Positions 6,873 to 52,682 of a stretch of DNA of 64,000 nucleotides are shown here, one piece after another. The notes beneath the pieces were generated by a model. That model was not told the origin of the DNA. It did no database searches and worked only from the letters and a program-made list of their open reading frames with translations. Position 1 is the first letter of the stretch; the number at the start of each line of letters is the position of its first letter. The translations under genes were made by a program, and so were the position numbers. The DNA lies in assembly GCF_030409835.1 (NCBI RefSeq), contig NZ_JAUFQO010000001.1:372001-436000 (forward strand), written 5' to 3'. The DNA is from Lutimonas halocynthiae (lineage in GTDB: Bacteria > Bacteroidota > Bacteroidia > Flavobacteriales > Flavobacteriaceae).

Positions 6873-6944
6873 TCTTAAGAGCGATCATCTTTAAGGTGAT
6901 AATTCAAAAGTTTACTTGTTTTTTTATGTTAGCATGTTGCAAAC

Positions 6945-20455: not shown

Positions 20456-23359
20456 CTAAAAAGAATTCTCTAAATTTAATTTAGTAACAGCCATTAATTC
20501 ACCTTCTAAAAATACTTTAATCGGGTAAACTCCTTTTTCAAAACTGCCTCCTTTTCTTTGGATAAACATAGTAACATCTACATCATGATTATTATAATTA
20601 ATAATGGCATGATCAGTGTATTTAGATTCTGTTTCTGTGTTTTTCAAAGTAAAAATTCCTTTTGCTTCTTCCACTTTTCCTTCTGGATTCTGCAATACCA
20701 AATGAGCTTCTTTCCTTCCAGAATCTACCTTTTGATTACTCAGTAATTTAAACGTAACTTTTATCAAATCGGTTTTATTGGCACTGTTGGTTTTCTGGTA
20801 TTTACCATTACCGCTCATTTTCATGGCTGTAATCTCCACATTGTCTACAGTCAGATTCTCTTCCATTTCAACAACCTTAGGCTTGGCATCAGTCTGAGCA
20901 ACCGCATTGTCAGTTGATGACTTAGGAGCATAGGCTGCCTGTCTTTCGCTTCTGCTTCGAGATCCGTTGATTGAGCTCCTACTGCTGTTTCTAACCATCA
21001 GGTCTCTATACTTCTTCTTAAAATGCAGCACGTTGTTTTTATATTCAATAATATTTGACCAACCTGTTTCTTGCATTTCCTCTGCATCAACAATAATCGC
21101 GGCAATTTTACCTTTTTGAAATTTTAAAGAATCAGCTAAATTCGGATAATTTGGGATAGCCTCTTCATACTTCTTCTCTAGCTCTGTCAATTGCTCAATC
21201 ATCTTGATTTTTTCAGTACCTATATAATTAAGCACCTTATTACTCTCAGGATTTGTAGCGACAATTGTCGAATTATAATTAATGACAACAGCTTCTTTAA
21301 TTTCTTTCTTATCTTCTTTTTCGGAGGAAGCAACTATATCTTGCTCCTTTTCAATTTTCCCGCTATTTACTTCTGTTTTCTCTATTTTATTTTCAGCAAC
21401 TATGACTTTACTTTCTTCTGGTTTTTCTTCTTTAATTTCCTCTTTTGAAGCGATTGGATTTGCTTCTGCTTTAGGTTTTAATGATGCAGCCAGAGGCGCC
21501 ATTTTTAAATTAGTTTTTTTAATTTCAGTCGCGTTAATTTGGTGATCCGTAGCGGCAACTTTTACGTTCTCCTCTTTCGCACTCTGTATTGGCTTAACTT
21601 CTTCTAATGCTATGGTCTCAACCTCAGCAACTACTTTTTCTTCCTTGGCAACTGGCTTAACTTCACTTAACTCAACTTTCGTTTCTGTTTTAGCCTTTTC
21701 TACTTTCTGTGATTTGGCAGCTACAGCTACAGCTGACTTTTTTGGCTGATAGGCAGTTTTTGTTTTTGTCGACCCAGAACTCTTTTTATTTGTTTTGGCT
21801 GGGACGTTTAAGAAGTTGAACTCAGTTCTTCTATTCATTTGATGAGATTCTTCTCTACATTCAACACCATTAACACACTGGTTGATCAACTTATCTTCAC
21901 CATATCCTTTTGATTTGATTCTGCTCTCATCAATTCCTTTTGATTTCAAATATTCAACTGCTGCTTTGGCACGTCGTTTTGAAAGCGCAACGTTATAAGC
22001 ATCTGTTCCACGTGAATCAGTATAAGACGAAGCCTGAATAACCAGATTATCATTCTGAGTCATAATCTCAGCTATCTTATCCATTTCTCTAGCAGCTTCT
22101 TCTGTGATCTGCGCGTCGTCATACTCATAATAGATAGGTGACATTCTATCAACTACAGGCTGTTTCTTTTCAATTTTACTAAGATTCAGATTGGTATGTA
22201 AGGCTGAATGGTAATTCTCTTCAAGAATTTCAATTCGTTTTTTATCATCTAAATAATCAGGATTTGAAGCAACTAGTTCGTACTCTTTAGCACATGATAC
22301 CGTAAATTGATATGTACCATCACTATAGGTTGCAACTGATTCAATTAAGCTTCCATCTATAGAGTATAGATCAACAGTAGCTCCTGATAAAGCTTCGTAT
22401 GATTGTCTGTCTCTAACTTTTCCGTCAACAGTAATAAAACATTTTCCAGGTCTGACATCTTCCTCTAATGTAAAAGAATAGAGATCATTAAAACCATCTC
22501 CTTGAAGACGGTTAGATGTAAAAAATCCCTGGTTATTGTCTTTATTAACGATATAAGCAAAATCATCATTAATACTATTAATAGGTGAAGACAACTCATA
22601 TACTTCAGAAGTAGCATTATCGAATACTTCAACTGCAAAAACATCTAATTTTCCAAGACCTTTATGACCATTTGAAGAAAAATAAAGAATATTTTCATCT
22701 GTTATATAAGGAGTAGTCTCATTTCCATCAGTATTTACAAAAGATCCCAGGTTTTTTGGCTGGCTGTACTCACCTTCAGCTAAAATATCAACAACGAAAA
22801 TATCTGACATTCCCTTTGAAGGCAATCTGTCAGAAACAAAATACAATTTGCTATCATCTACATTTAATACAGGGTAACCAGTAGATGTCTTCTTTTTATT
22901 AAAAGGAAGCTTCTTTGCATTTTTCCAACTTCCGTCGGCTGCAACATCAGCTTTATACAATATGAGTCTCTTGTTCTTTGGTAAGTTCTGCTTCTTTAAT
23001 TTCTTTTTGTATTTGTTTCTACTGAAGTAAACAGTTCTTCCATCCTTAGAATAAGTAACTCCAGTTTGGTTTACCTTTTTATTAATGTCTTTAGTAACTC
23101 TTTTTACATTTTTAATTTCTCCATCAAAATTTATATCTCCTTTATAAAGGTCTTTTCTTGGATTGTAATTTTTTTTAGCGGTAGTTACTTTGTGATCGGC
23201 AGAAGTAAATATTAATTTATTCTCATCTAATATGGCAACACCATAATCTGAGTTCTTCTTGTTTACTTCTAAAAATTTAATTTGATACTTCCCGGTCGAC
23301 TGACCTGCCACTTGTAAAAAACAAGCTAGAAAAAAAATTAATATGAATCCCCTTTTCAT
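20456..23359 (-). CDS. OmpA-family protein with PD40 repeats and a long unusual C-terminal extension
   Basis: A 967-residue envelope protein. In order: signal peptide (1-19); PD40/TolB-like beta-propeller repeats (about 35-300; KLYFVSDRLPSKGMSDIF, ILYFSSNGHKGLGKLDVF); a carboxypeptidase-regulatory-like domain (about 308-392); an OmpA peptidoglycan-binding domain (about 405-520; SSYTDSRGTDAYNVALSKRRAKAAVEYL, with the Asp and Arg that bind diaminopimelate); a Lys/Glu/Ala-rich low-complexity linker (521-690); a helical stretch (715-790); and a terminal beta-rich domain (830-967). The first part resembles T9SS-associated PorE, but without a TPR domain. An OmpA domain is normally C-terminal; here about 450 residues follow it. 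Confidence 0.85.
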   Translation of the reverse strand: MKRGFILIFFLACFLQVAGQSTGKYQIKFLEVNKKNSDYGVAILDENKLIFTSADHKVTTAKKNYNPRKDLYKGDINFDGEIKNVKRVTKDINKKVNQTGVTYSKDGRTVYFSRNKYKKKLKKQNLPKNKRLILYKADVAADGSWKNAKKLPFNKKKTSTGYPVLNVDDSKLYFVSDRLPSKGMSDIFVVDILAEGEYSQPKNLGSFVNTDGNETTPYITDENILYFSSNGHKGLGKLDVFAVEVFDNATSEVYELSSPINSINDDFAYIVNKDNNQGFFTSNRLQGDGFNDLYSFTLEEDVRPGKCFITVDGKVRDRQSYEALSGATVDLYSIDGSLIESVATYSDGTYQFTVSCAKEYELVASNPDYLDDKKRIEILEENYHSALHTNLNLSKIEKKQPVVDRMSPIYYEYDDAQITEEAAREMDKIAEIMTQNDNLVIQASSYTDSRGTDAYNVALSKRRAKAAVEYLKSKGIDESRIKSKGYGEDKLINQCVNGVECREESHQMNRRTEFNFLNVPAKTNKKSSGSTKTKTAYQPKKSAVAVAAKSQKVEKAKTETKVELSEVKPVAKEEKVVAEVETIALEEVKPIQSAKEENVKVAATDHQINATEIKKTNLKMAPLAASLKPKAEANPIASKEEIKEEKPEESKVIVAENKIEKTEVNSGKIEKEQDIVASSEKEDKKEIKEAVVINYNSTIVATNPESNKVLNYIGTEKIKMIEQLTELEKKYEEAIPNYPNLADSLKFQKGKIAAIIVDAEEMQETGWSNIIEYKNNVLHFKKKYRDLMVRNSSRSSINGSRSRSERQAAYAPKSSTDNAVAQTDAKPKVVEMEENLTVDNVEITAMKMSGNGKYQKTNSANKTDLIKVTFKLLSNQKVDSGRKEAHLVLQNPEGKVEEAKGIFTLKNTETESKYTDHAIINYNNHDVDVTMFIQRKGGSFEKGVYPIKVFLEGELMAVTKLNLENSF
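22004..22019. other. Weak parS-like site inside the OmpA-family gene
   Basis: TGTTCCACGTGAATCA differs from TGTTNCACGTGAAACA at one base. It overlaps codons for the conserved OmpA motif DSRGTD, so chance is a strong alternative. Listed because a perfect parS and a 15/16 parS lie within 5.3 kb. Confidence 0.2.
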
Positions 23360-24401: not shown

Positions 24402-25307
24402 TTATTTATCGTTTTTTATGATGTATATCAATGATGAGTATTCACCTGTCTTCTTAGCTTTCATGTTTGAGAGGAGCCCTATTTTAAATCCGGAAAACAA
24501 ATTTGATTTACCCGTTTTATACTTTTCGGACAATAGACTCACATAAAAAGAATCAAAAATAAGTGGCAGTACCTTTTCAATCTTAAAACTATTGCGTTCA
24601 AAAATATTTTGAATAGCTTCCTGGCTAAAATGCCACAAATGTCTGGGCACATCATAAGCTGCCCAAAACTCTTTATAATAACTAGCGTCGTAACTTTTAT
24701 AATTTGGCACAGCTATGATTAAGCATCCATCAACAGTTAGTAACTGTTTTAACCTGCCAACGTATTCTAACAAATTTGGTACATGCTCTAAAACATGAAA
24801 CATGGTTATCACATCATATCTGTCTTTAGAATCACTTGATAGATCATCTATATCTGAAACGAGAAGTTCTTTTGATGATATTTTTTCACCAGCCAATGCT
24901 CTTGCCTTATCACTAGGCTCAACTCCATTTATGCTCCAACCATCATTTTCACAAGCTGATAACAGATCACCAGTACCACAACCTATATCCAAAAGGCGGC
25001 CTTTATTACTTGACAGGCCATTGATCATTTTCACTTTTTTCTTTATTGAATAATTCTTTATCACTTGATAAGCCTTATCCATTAGAGAGCGCTTTGAATC
25101 AGTATGGGAGATATAGTCTTCACTTTCGTAATAAGAAGAAAGCTTATCAAGAGATGGGCGTGGAGAAGTCACTAAAAGATTCGTACTCGCATCCAATAAA
25201 AGCACAAACGTTTCACGTGAAACAGTGTGATCGACACAAGATAAAAATGGTATTAGATCCTTTTCATTTGCATAAGGCTCTATTTGTTTCATTATAGTAT
25301 CATTCAT
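24402..25307 (-). CDS. Class I SAM-dependent methyltransferase (Methyltransf_23 type)
   Basis: A 301-residue methyltransferase with motif I RLLDIGCGTGD (104-114), GVEPSDKARALA as the SAM ribose-binding strand, FHVLEHVPNLLEYVGRL as motif II and AVPNYKS as motif III. The N-terminal 60 residues contain a variant of the metal-site-like region seen in relatives but only one cysteine (Cys24). It follows mnmG by 25 bases on the same strand, an arrangement I associate with Bacteroidota, so an RNA or envelope substrate is possible but unproven. Codons for TVSRET (28-33) form a parS site. Start may also be the ATG five codons later. Confidence 0.85.
   Translation of the reverse strand: MNDTIMKQIEPYANEKDLIPFLSCVDHTVSRETFVLLLDASTNLLVTSPRPSLDKLSSYYESEDYISHTDSKRSLMDKAYQVIKNYSIKKKVKMINGLSSNKGRLLDIGCGTGDLLSACENDGWSINGVEPSDKARALAGEKISSKELLVSDIDDLSSDSKDRYDVITMFHVLEHVPNLLEYVGRLKQLLTVDGCLIIAVPNYKSYDASYYKEFWAAYDVPRHLWHFSQEAIQNIFERNSFKIEKVLPLIFDSFYVSLLSEKYKTGKSNLFSGFKIGLLSNMKAKKTGEYSSLIYIIKNDK
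25209..25224. other. parS: parS centromere-like site embedded in the methyltransferase gene
   Basis: CGTTTCACGTGAAACA matches the ParB/Spo0J target TGTTTCACGTGAAACA at 15 of 16 bases; the central 14-bp palindrome GTTTCACGTGAAAC is perfect. It lies within codons 28-33 of the methyltransferase gene, about 2.0 kb from a perfect site. Intragenic parS sites are common in bacteria. Confidence 0.8.
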
Positions 25308-25332: not shown

Positions 25333-27207
25333 TTAACGTCCCATATAAACCAACAGTACAGAAACATCACTTGGCGACACTCCTGAAATTCTGCTTGCTT
25401 GCGATATGGTTGCTGGCTGAATCTTTGCTAACTTCTCCCTTGCTTCATAGGAGATTGATTTAATTTTTTCGTAATTAAAATTCACTGGAATTTTTATGTT
25501 CTCTAAGCGCTGTAATTTGTCAGCAGAATTTCTTTCCTTCTCGATATAACCAGAATATTTAACATGGATTTCTGTTTGTTCTACAACCTCCTCATCAATT
25601 TCATGCTCCTTAATAAACTCCATAACTTTAGGAAAACGCTTGACGTCATTAAAATCTAATTGTGGCCTAGAAGCAATTTTAAACATTTTCATTGACTGGC
25701 TTACCGCAGCAGAATCCTTTTCATTCAAGATTGGATTTACATCCTCGGGCTTTATACTTGTATCCTTTAAAAACTTGATAAATAAATCAGTCTTTTCTTG
25801 CTTCTCAAGTACTCTATTCAAACGCTCTTTAGAAGCCAAACCAATCGCATACGATAAGGGTGTCAATCTCAAATCAGCGTTATCTTGTCTTAATAAGGTT
25901 CTGTATTCTGCTCTTGAGGTAAACATCCTATAAGGCTCATCTGTACCCTTGGTAATAAGGTCGTCAATCAAAACGCCTATATAAGCCTCATCTCTTTGTA
26001 AGATAAATGGTTCTCTTCCTTTTATATTCAAGGCTGCATTTATTCCTGCCATCAAACCTTGAGCTGCAGCTTCCTCATACCCTGTAGTTCCATTAATCTG
26101 ACCTGCAAAATAGAGGTTCTTAATAAGCTTTGTTTCTAAAGTATGCTGTAATTGTGTTGGTGGAAAATAATCATATTCTATTGCATATCCGAATCTCAAA
26201 AACTTAACATTTTCAAATCCAGCTACCTTTTTTAAAGCTTTGTATTGTACCTCATGTGGCAAGGAAGTTGAAAAACCGTTTACATATATCTCTGTCGTAT
26301 TCCAACCTTCCGGCTCCACAAACAACTGATGCCTGTCCTTGGTTGCAAACCTATCAATCTTATCTTCTATTGAAGGACAGTACCTTGGTCCAATCCCTTT
26401 AATTCTTCCGGTATACATCGGTGAATTTTCAAAACCCTCCCTAAGCAAATCATGAACTTCTGGAGAAGTATAAGACATAAAACAAGAACGCTGTTCTTTT
26501 AGATTAGTCGTATCAGTATAAGAAAATTTAGAAGTTACTTCATCTCCTGGCTGCTCTATCATTTTTGAAAAGTCTAAAGACCTGGCATCCACTCGAGGTG
26601 GTGTGCCTGTCTTCATTCTTCCAGATTCAAATCCTCTTGCAACCAAATCTTCGGTTATCCCAGTTGAAGATCCTTCCCCTGCTCTACCGCCACCAAAAGT
26701 TTTTTCACCTATATGAATTCGACCGTTTAAAAACGTTCCAGCAGTAACTATAACTGTCGTCCCAAAAATCTCAAGACCCAACTGCGTCTTTACACCTATT
26801 ATCTTTTCTTCATCAAACAACAAACCATTAACAGAGTCTTGAAACATATCAAGGTTATCAGTGTGCTCCAATGTATTTCGCCACTCTTCAGCAAACCTCA
26901 TTCTATCACTTTGCGCTCTCGGACTCCACATTGCAGGCCCTTTAGATTTATTCAACATCTTAAATTGAATAGCAGTTAAATCTGTTACGATACCACTATA
27001 TCCTCCAAGCGCATCAATCTCCCTTACAATTTGTCCTTTTGCAATACCACCCATCGCTGGGTTACAACTCATTTGAGCTATGTTCTGCAAACTCATTGTA
27101 ATTAACAAAGTGTGGCAGCCCAAATTAGCAGCCGCAGCGGCAGCTTCACTTCCAGCATGGCCTCCACCAACAACTATAACATCATACTTCGACTCGAACA
27201 TATTCAT
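25333..27207 (-). CDS. mnmG: tRNA uridine-5-carboxymethylaminomethyl modification enzyme MnmG (GidA)
   Basis: A 624-residue FAD enzyme that with MnmE installs the cmnm5 group on U34 of several tRNAs. The N-terminal dinucleotide fold is YDVIVVGGGHAGSEAA. Family signatures are present: MSCNPAMGGIAKGQ, the catalytic-cysteine segment GRIKGIGPRYCPSIEDKI, FAGQINGTTGYEEAAAQG and the C-terminal GidA-associated domain ending RISGVSPSDVSVLLVY. Length is normal for the family. It follows ybeY by 35 bases, and a perfect parS site fills most of that gap. Confidence 0.97.
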   Translation of the reverse strand: MNMFESKYDVIVVGGGHAGSEAAAAAANLGCHTLLITMSLQNIAQMSCNPAMGGIAKGQIVREIDALGGYSGIVTDLTAIQFKMLNKSKGPAMWSPRAQSDRMRFAEEWRNTLEHTDNLDMFQDSVNGLLFDEEKIIGVKTQLGLEIFGTTVIVTAGTFLNGRIHIGEKTFGGGRAGEGSSTGITEDLVARGFESGRMKTGTPPRVDARSLDFSKMIEQPGDEVTSKFSYTDTTNLKEQRSCFMSYTSPEVHDLLREGFENSPMYTGRIKGIGPRYCPSIEDKIDRFATKDRHQLFVEPEGWNTTEIYVNGFSTSLPHEVQYKALKKVAGFENVKFLRFGYAIEYDYFPPTQLQHTLETKLIKNLYFAGQINGTTGYEEAAAQGLMAGINAALNIKGREPFILQRDEAYIGVLIDDLITKGTDEPYRMFTSRAEYRTLLRQDNADLRLTPLSYAIGLASKERLNRVLEKQEKTDLFIKFLKDTSIKPEDVNPILNEKDSAAVSQSMKMFKIASRPQLDFNDVKRFPKVMEFIKEHEIDEEVVEQTEIHVKYSGYIEKERNSADKLQRLENIKIPVNFNYEKIKSISYEAREKLAKIQPATISQASRISGVSPSDVSVLLVYMGR

Positions 27208-27214
27208 ATCTTAT

Positions 27215-27230
27215 TGTTTCACGTGAAACA
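27215..27230. other. parS: Perfect parS site (ParB/Spo0J binding) between ybeY and mnmG
   Basis: TGTTTCACGTGAAACA, a perfect 16-bp palindrome identical to the widely conserved chromosomal parS. It lies in the 35-base gap upstream of mnmG. Chromosomal parS sites cluster around oriC, so this window is probably origin-proximal; the parA/parB genes are not in the window. Confidence 0.93.
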
Positions 27231-27242
27231 TTTTATCACTTG

Positions 27243-27656
27243 TTAAAAAGTGCGCAAAGATAGGTAATAATCTTCTTTCGCTCTCATCATCATTTTATCC
27301 TCTTCTGACTTGTCTTTGTAACCACAGTAATGCAAGACTCCATGTATCATCACTCTATGCAATTCATCTTTGAAAGACAGGTTCAATTCCTCAGAATTCT
27401 CCTTCACTCTTTCATAAGAAATGTATACATCGCCTGAAACAACAATTCCTTGGGTATAATCAAAACTAATAATATCTGTTAATGTATTGTGTTTCAATGT
27501 TTTAACATTAATTTCGTGGAGATAATCATCATCGCAAAATATGTAGTTTAACTCCCCTAATTCCTTTTCTTCTGAGTCTAAAGTAAACTGTACCCAATCT
27601 GATATCTGTGGCTCATCATCTAAGCTAAACTTACCTACTATTGTATACTCAATCAT
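27243..27656 (-). CDS. ybeY: Endoribonuclease YbeY (16S rRNA maturation)
   Basis: A 137-residue single-domain metalloprotein needed for 16S rRNA 3' maturation and ribosome quality control. The core RVMIHGVLHYCGYKDKSEED gives H-x3-H (His105, His109); the third ligand, a histidine in GYDH of most YbeY proteins, is Asp115 here (GYKD). I believe this is the usual Bacteroidota form, and aspartate can still bind zinc. VKTLKHNTLTDIISFDY is the second family signature. It starts 2 bases after the DUF4175 gene stop, so the two are coupled. Confidence 0.92.
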   Translation of the reverse strand: MIEYTIVGKFSLDDEPQISDWVQFTLDSEEKELGELNYIFCDDDYLHEINVKTLKHNTLTDIISFDYTQGIVVSGDVYISYERVKENSEELNLSFKDELHRVMIHGVLHYCGYKDKSEEDKMMMRAKEDYYLSLRTF

Positions 27657-51930: not shown

Positions 51931-51947
51931 AATATTTAAGAATTTTA

Positions 51948-51974
51948 ACATTTTTGTAACATATTCAAAAATGT
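51948..51974. promoter_or_regulatory. Perfect 9-bp inverted repeat before a small ORF
   Basis: ACATTTTTG (51948-51956) and CAAAAATGT (51966-51974) are exact complements separated by 9 bases. No T-run follows, so it is a better operator than terminator. It ends 16 bases before a 53-codon ORF. Confidence 0.4.
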
Positions 51975-51990
51975 CTCGTCTATAGAGTAT

Positions 51991-52152
51991 ATGAAACCAG
52001 TAGTTAAAATAATCATTCTCTGTATTCTTATTTTTGCCCTAAGTATTTTAGCAGCAAAAAAAAGTATAGATTATACTTTTAAAAAAGTAGAATGTAACCA
52101 AACAACTCAGACTACATCTTTATATTTTCAATTAACTTCTGATAACATTTAA
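51991..52152 (+). CDS. Possible 53-residue small membrane protein
   Basis: ATG 51991 to TAA 52150-52152. The sequence opens with MKPVVKIIILCILIFALSIL, a good transmembrane or signal-anchor helix behind a basic start, followed by a polar tail of about 33 residues with one cysteine. I do not recognise a family. It stands alone in an AT-rich gap, after a perfect inverted repeat. An ORF of this size could arise by chance, but the textbook topology argues for a real small protein. Confidence 0.4.
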   Translation: MKPVVKIIILCILIFALSILAAKKSIDYTFKKVECNQTTQTTSLYFQLTSDNI

Positions 52153-52682
52153 TCATTCATTTTCTTCCTTCTATTTTTTTGTTATTAACAACTATAATAT
52201 TATTAATAGATTTAATTTAAATTTTAAAAAAAGAAATGATGTGTATTATAGCTTGTTAATACACCCAATAAAAAGATTAAATAAAATTATGAAATATCAG
52301 TTTTAAAAAACTATAAACAGTTTATAAAAAACTAAAAGCCTAATAATCAATTTTATTTTTGAGTTATACACAATTTAATATTGTTGTATTAACTGTTTTA
52401 AATGTAAAACTAAATTAAAAATATTGATAATAATACTGTTAAAACCTGTTAATAAATAGAGGTGAAATTCTTACAAATAAATTTGTTTGTTTTATTTGTT
52501 TTAATCAATAGGTAAATAAGCTTGATTTGCAAAATATATTTATCAGAACTATCGCTAATTTAATCAACAATTAGCTATAATTATAAAGCCTTCCAAATCA
52601 GTAGAATGTAAACATTGATTAACAATGCAATAATTTTATGTTTATTACTTGAATAATCTTAATTTTGTTTAAAAATAAAAGG
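52153..52682. other. 530-bp AT-rich non-coding region, tentative oriC candidate
   Basis: No open reading frame of note. It is visibly the most AT-rich stretch of the window. It holds one TTATACACA DnaA-box-like site (52364-52372), a GTGTATTA/TAATACAC perfect 8-bp inverted repeat (52241-52264) whose arms resemble degenerate DnaA boxes, repeated TGTTAATA words and a CATTG/CAATG dyad (52613-52627). Transcription leads away from it on the left (mostly minus), less strictly on the right. parS sites lie 25-27 kb away. Only suggestive. Confidence 0.3.

Follow-up and report, generated by a model that had tools for sequence, protein, structure and literature searches.

A probable origin-proximal parS site beside mnmG in Lutimonas halocynthiae and the recurrence of such sites at mnmG over much of the Bacteroidota

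Introduction

In Lutimonas halocynthiae, a 16-bp palindrome takes up most of the short gap (35 bp, positions 27208-27242) that separates ybeY from mnmG. This raises two questions: is the palindrome a chromosomal parS site, and why does it lie against mnmG, a gene assigned by TIGR00136 to a tRNA wobble-uridine modification enzyme? In passages of a review, parS is described as typically lying near oriC, with extra copies tolerated only near an existing site, and the forces that drive parS clustering and placing over evolutionary time are named as an open question (PMC7333895). We analyzed a window of 64,000 nucleotides, C1:372001-436000 of the assembly, together with the rest of the genome and with related genomes. 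Positions refer to this window unless a contig is given.

Results

A perfect parS palindrome in the gap between ybeY and mnmG

The window letters confirmed that the gap holds a perfect palindrome, as a preliminary description of this DNA had claimed (site 1, Table 1). Site 1 matches the 16-bp palindrome TGTTNCACGTGAAACA that defines parS, and is separated by 7 bp from the mnmG start codon and by 12 bp from the ybeY ORF. An exact match to TGTTNCACGTGNAACA was found at site 1 alone in the whole assembly (3,989,279 bases, 20 contigs). When one mismatch was allowed, three places were found genome-wide, all inside 5.2 kb (sites 1, 2, and the third site of Table 1), and the reversed pattern, used as a control, gave 1 match. 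The parS-like sites of this genome are thus rare and clustered, and the many randomly scattered copies that were to count against the preliminary description were not found. At two mismatches, 22 places were matched compared to 11 for the reversed pattern. The signal at this level is therefore mostly noise, and only the first three places deserve attention.

Table 1. Positions of the parS-like sites, the likely origin, and the genes discussed in the text
Feature	Position	Strand	Description
parS site 1	27215-27230	.	TGTTTCACGTGAAACA, perfect 16-bp palindrome, ybeY-mnmG gap
parS site 2	25209-25224	.	CGTTTCACGTGAAACA, one mismatch, other side of mnmG
Third parS-like site (weak)	22004-22019	.	TGTTCCACGTGAATCA, one mismatch, inside OmpA-like gene
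mnmG (gidA)	25333-27207	-	TIGR00136, 848.1 bits (cut-off 524.85); between sites 1 and 2
ybeY	27243-27656	-	TIGR00043, 102.9 bits (cut-off 45); upstream neighbour of mnmG
Class I methyltransferase-like ORF	24402-25307	-	UbiG-like, below cut-off; downstream neighbour of mnmG; contains site 2
Likely oriC	51931-52664	.	AT-rich gap, 19.8% GC, cumulative GC-skew minimum
parB	C8:117265-118161		298 aa, carries GERRYRA
parA-like ATPase	C8:116499-117281		260 aa, KGGVGKTT; directly upstream of parB

Site 2 and the weaker third site had been left out of the preliminary description. Site 2 is located 108 bp beyond the mnmG stop, within codons ~28-33 of the methyltransferase ORF. The one congener examined (G025) keeps the pair around mnmG as TGTTCCACGTGAAACA and TGTTTCACGTGAAACG, the latter being the counterpart of site 2. 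A counterpart of the third site was absent from the equivalent region of this congener at up to two mismatches. The third site is possibly a chance match, and its inclusion in the centromere was dropped as unsupported by this one congener.

The genome encodes one ParB, on another contig

One ParB scored above the TIGR00180 cut-off in the genome (167 bits, cut-off 58.45), and no other member of the ParB family reached an E-value of 0.001. Its best solved relative is the ParB family protein 7bnk (8.7e-51). The parB gene, the absence of which would have spoken against the preliminary description, is therefore present, and a parA-like gene lies directly beside it. The product of the latter resembles ParA models and scores above no NCBIfam cut-off. 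Both genes are located on contig C8, where no parS was found within one mismatch. Proximity of parS to parAB, which is common and not obligatory, was thus not observed: the two are on different contigs. Were C1 and C8 parts of a single chromosome, a minimum of about 379 kb would separate parB from site 1. In 19 of 19 single-contig relatives, the distance between parB and mnmG was 0.30-2.24 Mb, corresponding to 8-47% of the chromosome. The centromere stays with mnmG and not with parAB.

The likely replication origin is about 25 kb from site 1

Between 192 and 616 kb of C1, the GC skew at third codon positions was negative in each of the 12 left-hand blocks of 20 kb and positive in each of the 9 right-hand ones. 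The negative blocks run to 432 kb, and the switch falls within the block at 412-432 kb. The cumulative skew, followed in 4-kb steps, reached its minimum at C1:424001 (window position 52001), at an AT-rich gap flanked by a diacylglycerol-kinase-like gene and rpiB. Because the skew changes sign at this gap, the window contains the likely oriC, placed by skew and AT content only. The statement that the window is close to the chromosome origin held, as about 25 kb separate site 1 from the skew minimum and the AT-rich gap.

In three single-contig relatives, for which 20-kb blocks were sampled, the skew switched at mnmG itself or no more than about 150 kb away. The sign change fell at 1.25-1.37 Mb in G216 (mnmG at 1.376 Mb), at 1.64-1.70 Mb in G201 (mnmG at 1.594 Mb), and at 2.77-2.79 Mb in G193 (mnmG at 2.764 Mb). 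Isolated blocks on the arms beside the switch had the wrong sign (one in G201, two in G193).

DnaA boxes were dropped as proof of the origin. The canonical box TTWTNCACA showed no enrichment, with 3 copies in the window vs 10.3 expected, and the looser TTATNNACA, with 3 matches in the AT-rich gap compared to 0.26 expected by length, was chosen after the sequence had been read. The dnaA gene is on another contig, C8. A Hi-C study of gut bacteria cautions, in the part consulted, that the origin is not in every case found at dnaA, and uses parS clusters for origin placement, with two Bacteroidetes species included (PMC10197239).

Sites adjoin mnmG at most of the loci examined

Conservation was examined at 120 mnmG loci: the best 80 of 590 confirmed matches to the MnmG of the window (mostly Flavobacteriaceae, going by their titles), another 29 within the same class, and 11 from the remainder of the phylum. 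Among these 120 loci (best 80 of 590 included), a site with at most one mismatch was found within 250 bp of the mnmG ORF at 104 and was missing at 16; the counterpart of site 1 on the upstream side was present at 98 and that of site 2 on the downstream side at 80, so that 74 loci had sites on both sides, 24 upstream alone, and 6 downstream alone. By group, sites on both sides were found at 61/80 (best 80 of 590), 12/29 (same class), and 1/11 (elsewhere in the phylum), and on at least one side at 73/80, 23/29, and 8/11, respectively. At six loci (L079, L091, L096, L115, L119, and L123), the fetched stretch had no site even at two mismatches; the first three are one Capnocytophaga and two Saprospiraceae records.

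The flanks of mnmG contained 221 sites in 59,912 bases, compared to 43 in the other 2,225,763 bases of the 120 loci (density ratio 191), and the latter include extra array copies upstream of mnmG. The reversed pattern was found 0 times in 2,285,675 bases. The median gap between site and ORF, which is approximate because ORF starts were extrapolated from alignments, was 9 bp upstream (n=98, with 58 at 12 bp or less) and 8 bp downstream (n=80, with 51 at 12 bp or less). A wider flavobacterial form of the site reads TGTTCCACGTGGAACA.

Several further features were observed at individual loci. Three Flavobacterium loci carry 12 (L061), 7 (L054), and 6 (L045) parS-like copies upstream of mnmG at up to two mismatches; in L061, the copies of one series are spaced by about 45 bp and those of a second by about 117 bp. 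The near-parS sequence TCTTCCACGTGAAACA occurs at +6.4 to +7.4 kb from mnmG in five genera (L029, L032, L037, L043, and L049). In addition, parS overlaps a possible start codon of eight ORFs that start with MFHVKH, MFHVEH, or similar (L049, L080, L092, L124, L128, L132, L134, and L136). The ATG arises where an A stands directly before parS.

The association extends over much of the phylum

The best 80 of 590 loci were chosen by MnmG similarity and are therefore close and related. A fairer test is provided by 118 Bacteroidota genomes of at least 95% completeness, in which ParB scored over the cut-off in 118 and MnmG in 117. The exact 16-mer was found in 64/118 genomes and its reversed control in 1/118. 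The count of 116/118 genomes with a site at one mismatch was set aside as evidence, because the reversed control also matches in many genomes at this level.

Perfect sites, counted in the TTTC/GAAA, TTCC/GAAA, and TTCC/GGAA forms, lay within 500 bp of the mnmG match in 123 of 153 cases and within 8 kb in 142. Divided into two subsets, 112/125 of the first and 11/28 of the second were within 500 bp, and 23/28 of the second were within 8 kb. The remaining 11 are sites on the same contig at 25.5 kb (G170) and 12.9 kb (G128), and sites on a contig other than that of mnmG: three in G207, two each in G112 and G132, and one each in G162 and G123, the last 545 bases from its contig end. In two genomes of one family (loci L178 of G162 and L179 of G135), no site was present at mnmG, and GGTTCCACGTGGAACA was located at 6927 and 9580, respectively, inside an ORF that resembles threonine synthase when read by eye.

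Neither ybeY nor the methyltransferase was found near mnmG in the 11 loci of the phylum outside the class. Neighbor models over the cut-off at these loci and at one locus of the class were SecD, RmlD, MnmE, and SerS, and models below it were RsmG, glutathione peroxidase, DNA polymerase II, and agmatinase. As the other neighbors differ across lineages, mnmG is the steady partner of the sites. The preliminary description had linked the mnmG locus with segregation in this lineage; the link between mnmG and parS stands and reaches over much of the phylum, with the qualification that parAB itself is on another contig.

Discussion

Judged from its letters, its place, and its context, site 1 is a real, oriC-proximal parS. 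It resembles the chromosomal parS sites of Bacillus subtilis Spo0J, Caulobacter ParB, and Pseudomonas aeruginosa in its 16-bp consensus, its position near oriC, and its few clustered copies. The ParABS systems of these bacteria also share with that of L. halocynthiae a ParB with a GERRxRA motif and an adjoining ParA-like ATPase. Unlike in those systems, the sites here flank mnmG and parAB lies on another contig. In B. subtilis, parS-359 is located within parB and was carried by a 7.2-kb PCR product whose edge holds gidA, as given in the relevant part of PMC4442127. A single site of this type is a known kind of element; the point of interest is the arrangement that flanks mnmG. No description of this link in Bacteroidota was recognized among the open-access papers searched, and the main parS survey, by Livny et al. 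2007, may mention it.

Very probably, site 1 is a chromosomal parS that forms a two-site centromere around mnmG together with site 2, serves ParABS segregation, and is locked to the gene by abutment. Among the weak points of this explanation are that site 2 has one mismatch and sits in a coding region, that the Noc model outscores the ParB domain model on this ParB, that 16/120 loci (best 80 of 590 included) have no site close to mnmG, that some genomes carry perfect sites on a contig other than that of mnmG, and that the skew samples contain wrong-sign blocks. Following the established ParABS mechanism, we infer that ParB dimers would recognize the palindrome with a helix-turn-helix domain, take up CTP in the GERRYRA pocket, and close into clamps, which would slide off the site over mnmG and its neighbors. 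ParA would then move the ParB complex, and newly copied origins would separate. Most simply, the sites would stay with mnmG because they abut its ORF, because the gene is itself origin-proximal, and because an additional parS is reportedly tolerated only close to one already present. A rearrangement breakpoint would seldom fall in the gap of about ten bases between site and ORF.

Other readings of the palindromes were weighed against this one. Because a 16-nt palindrome is self-complementary and the sites adjoin start and stop codons, they might act as RNA hairpins at both ends of the mnmG message and not as DNA sites. In this case, letters 5 and 12 in the mRNA sense should favor U-G over C-A, whereas the counts were 27 vs 19 upstream and 10 vs 26 downstream. 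The arrays of up to twelve copies (at two mismatches) well upstream and the sites away from mnmG also speak against hairpins. The reading was rejected on the counts at letters 5 and 12, where base pairing was not retained, and on the lack of an Rfam match in the window, and we regard it as highly improbable. Binding by another regulator or by the ParB paralogue Noc would be conceivable since other proteins can bind CACGTG palindromes and since the Noc-binding site (NBS) is a related palindrome, which differs from parS by two bases according to a passage in a review (PMC7333895). The NCBIfam Noc model even scores the ParB of this genome at 236 bits, which is above the score of the ParB domain model (166 bits), yet under its own cut-off of 315. 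However, the genome has no second ParB-family gene at an E-value up to 0.001, the one present has a parA-like gene beside it, and conservation covers the full 16-bp parS consensus, beyond CACGTG. The window carries parS letters, with no match to the NBS at two mismatches. Another regulator or Noc is thus scarcely credible as the cognate protein. A chance palindrome could be argued from the excess of only 22 over 11 matches at two mismatches, by which weak sites mean little, but it is contradicted by the exact site, the clustering, and the conservation, and its probability is practically negligible.

An alternative that accepts the sites as parS is that they also act on mnmG, with ParB at the start and stop controlling or insulating transcription and thereby keeping the sites in place. 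The tight abutment (medians of 9 and 8 bp), the sites on both sides at 74/120 loci (best 80 of 590 included), and the variation of neighbors other than mnmG between lineages are consistent with such control. A precedent exists in P. aeruginosa, where ParB at parS3 and parS4, likewise intergenic and just upstream of genes, is reported to repress the genes behind them in the part of the study consulted (PMC7022226). Against control, the lock can be explained by tight linkage alone, and the 6/120 downstream-only and 24/120 upstream-only loci (best 80 of 590 included) indicate that no one regulatory layout is general. Promoters of Bacteroidota carry the motif TTTG-N17-22-TANNTTTG. It was found in only 6/119 upstream regions, compared to 0 inside mnmG, a control unmatched in base composition. 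A role of ParB in mnmG expression is possible, and control of mnmG as the reason for the lock is, in our view, unlikely. A further-reaching proposal, which we consider doubtful and decidedly speculative, is that mnmG of Bacteroidota has been built into the centromere: the flanking parS would be selected, ParB clamps would adjust mnmG expression and so couple wobble modification and translation to segregation, and parAB would be free to move. If this were true, tRNA wobble modification, and hence translation, would be coupled to origin duplication and segregation.

For the Bacteroidota, the probable chromosomal parS centromere at mnmG offers a natural series of many genomes: it remains beside a single gene, whereas parAB and its further neighbors change place. 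This series makes it testable whether passive linkage or an action of ParB on mnmG holds the two together. It also provides a practical marker: within this phylum, the origin region is indicated by an mnmG gene flanked by parS and not by dnaA.
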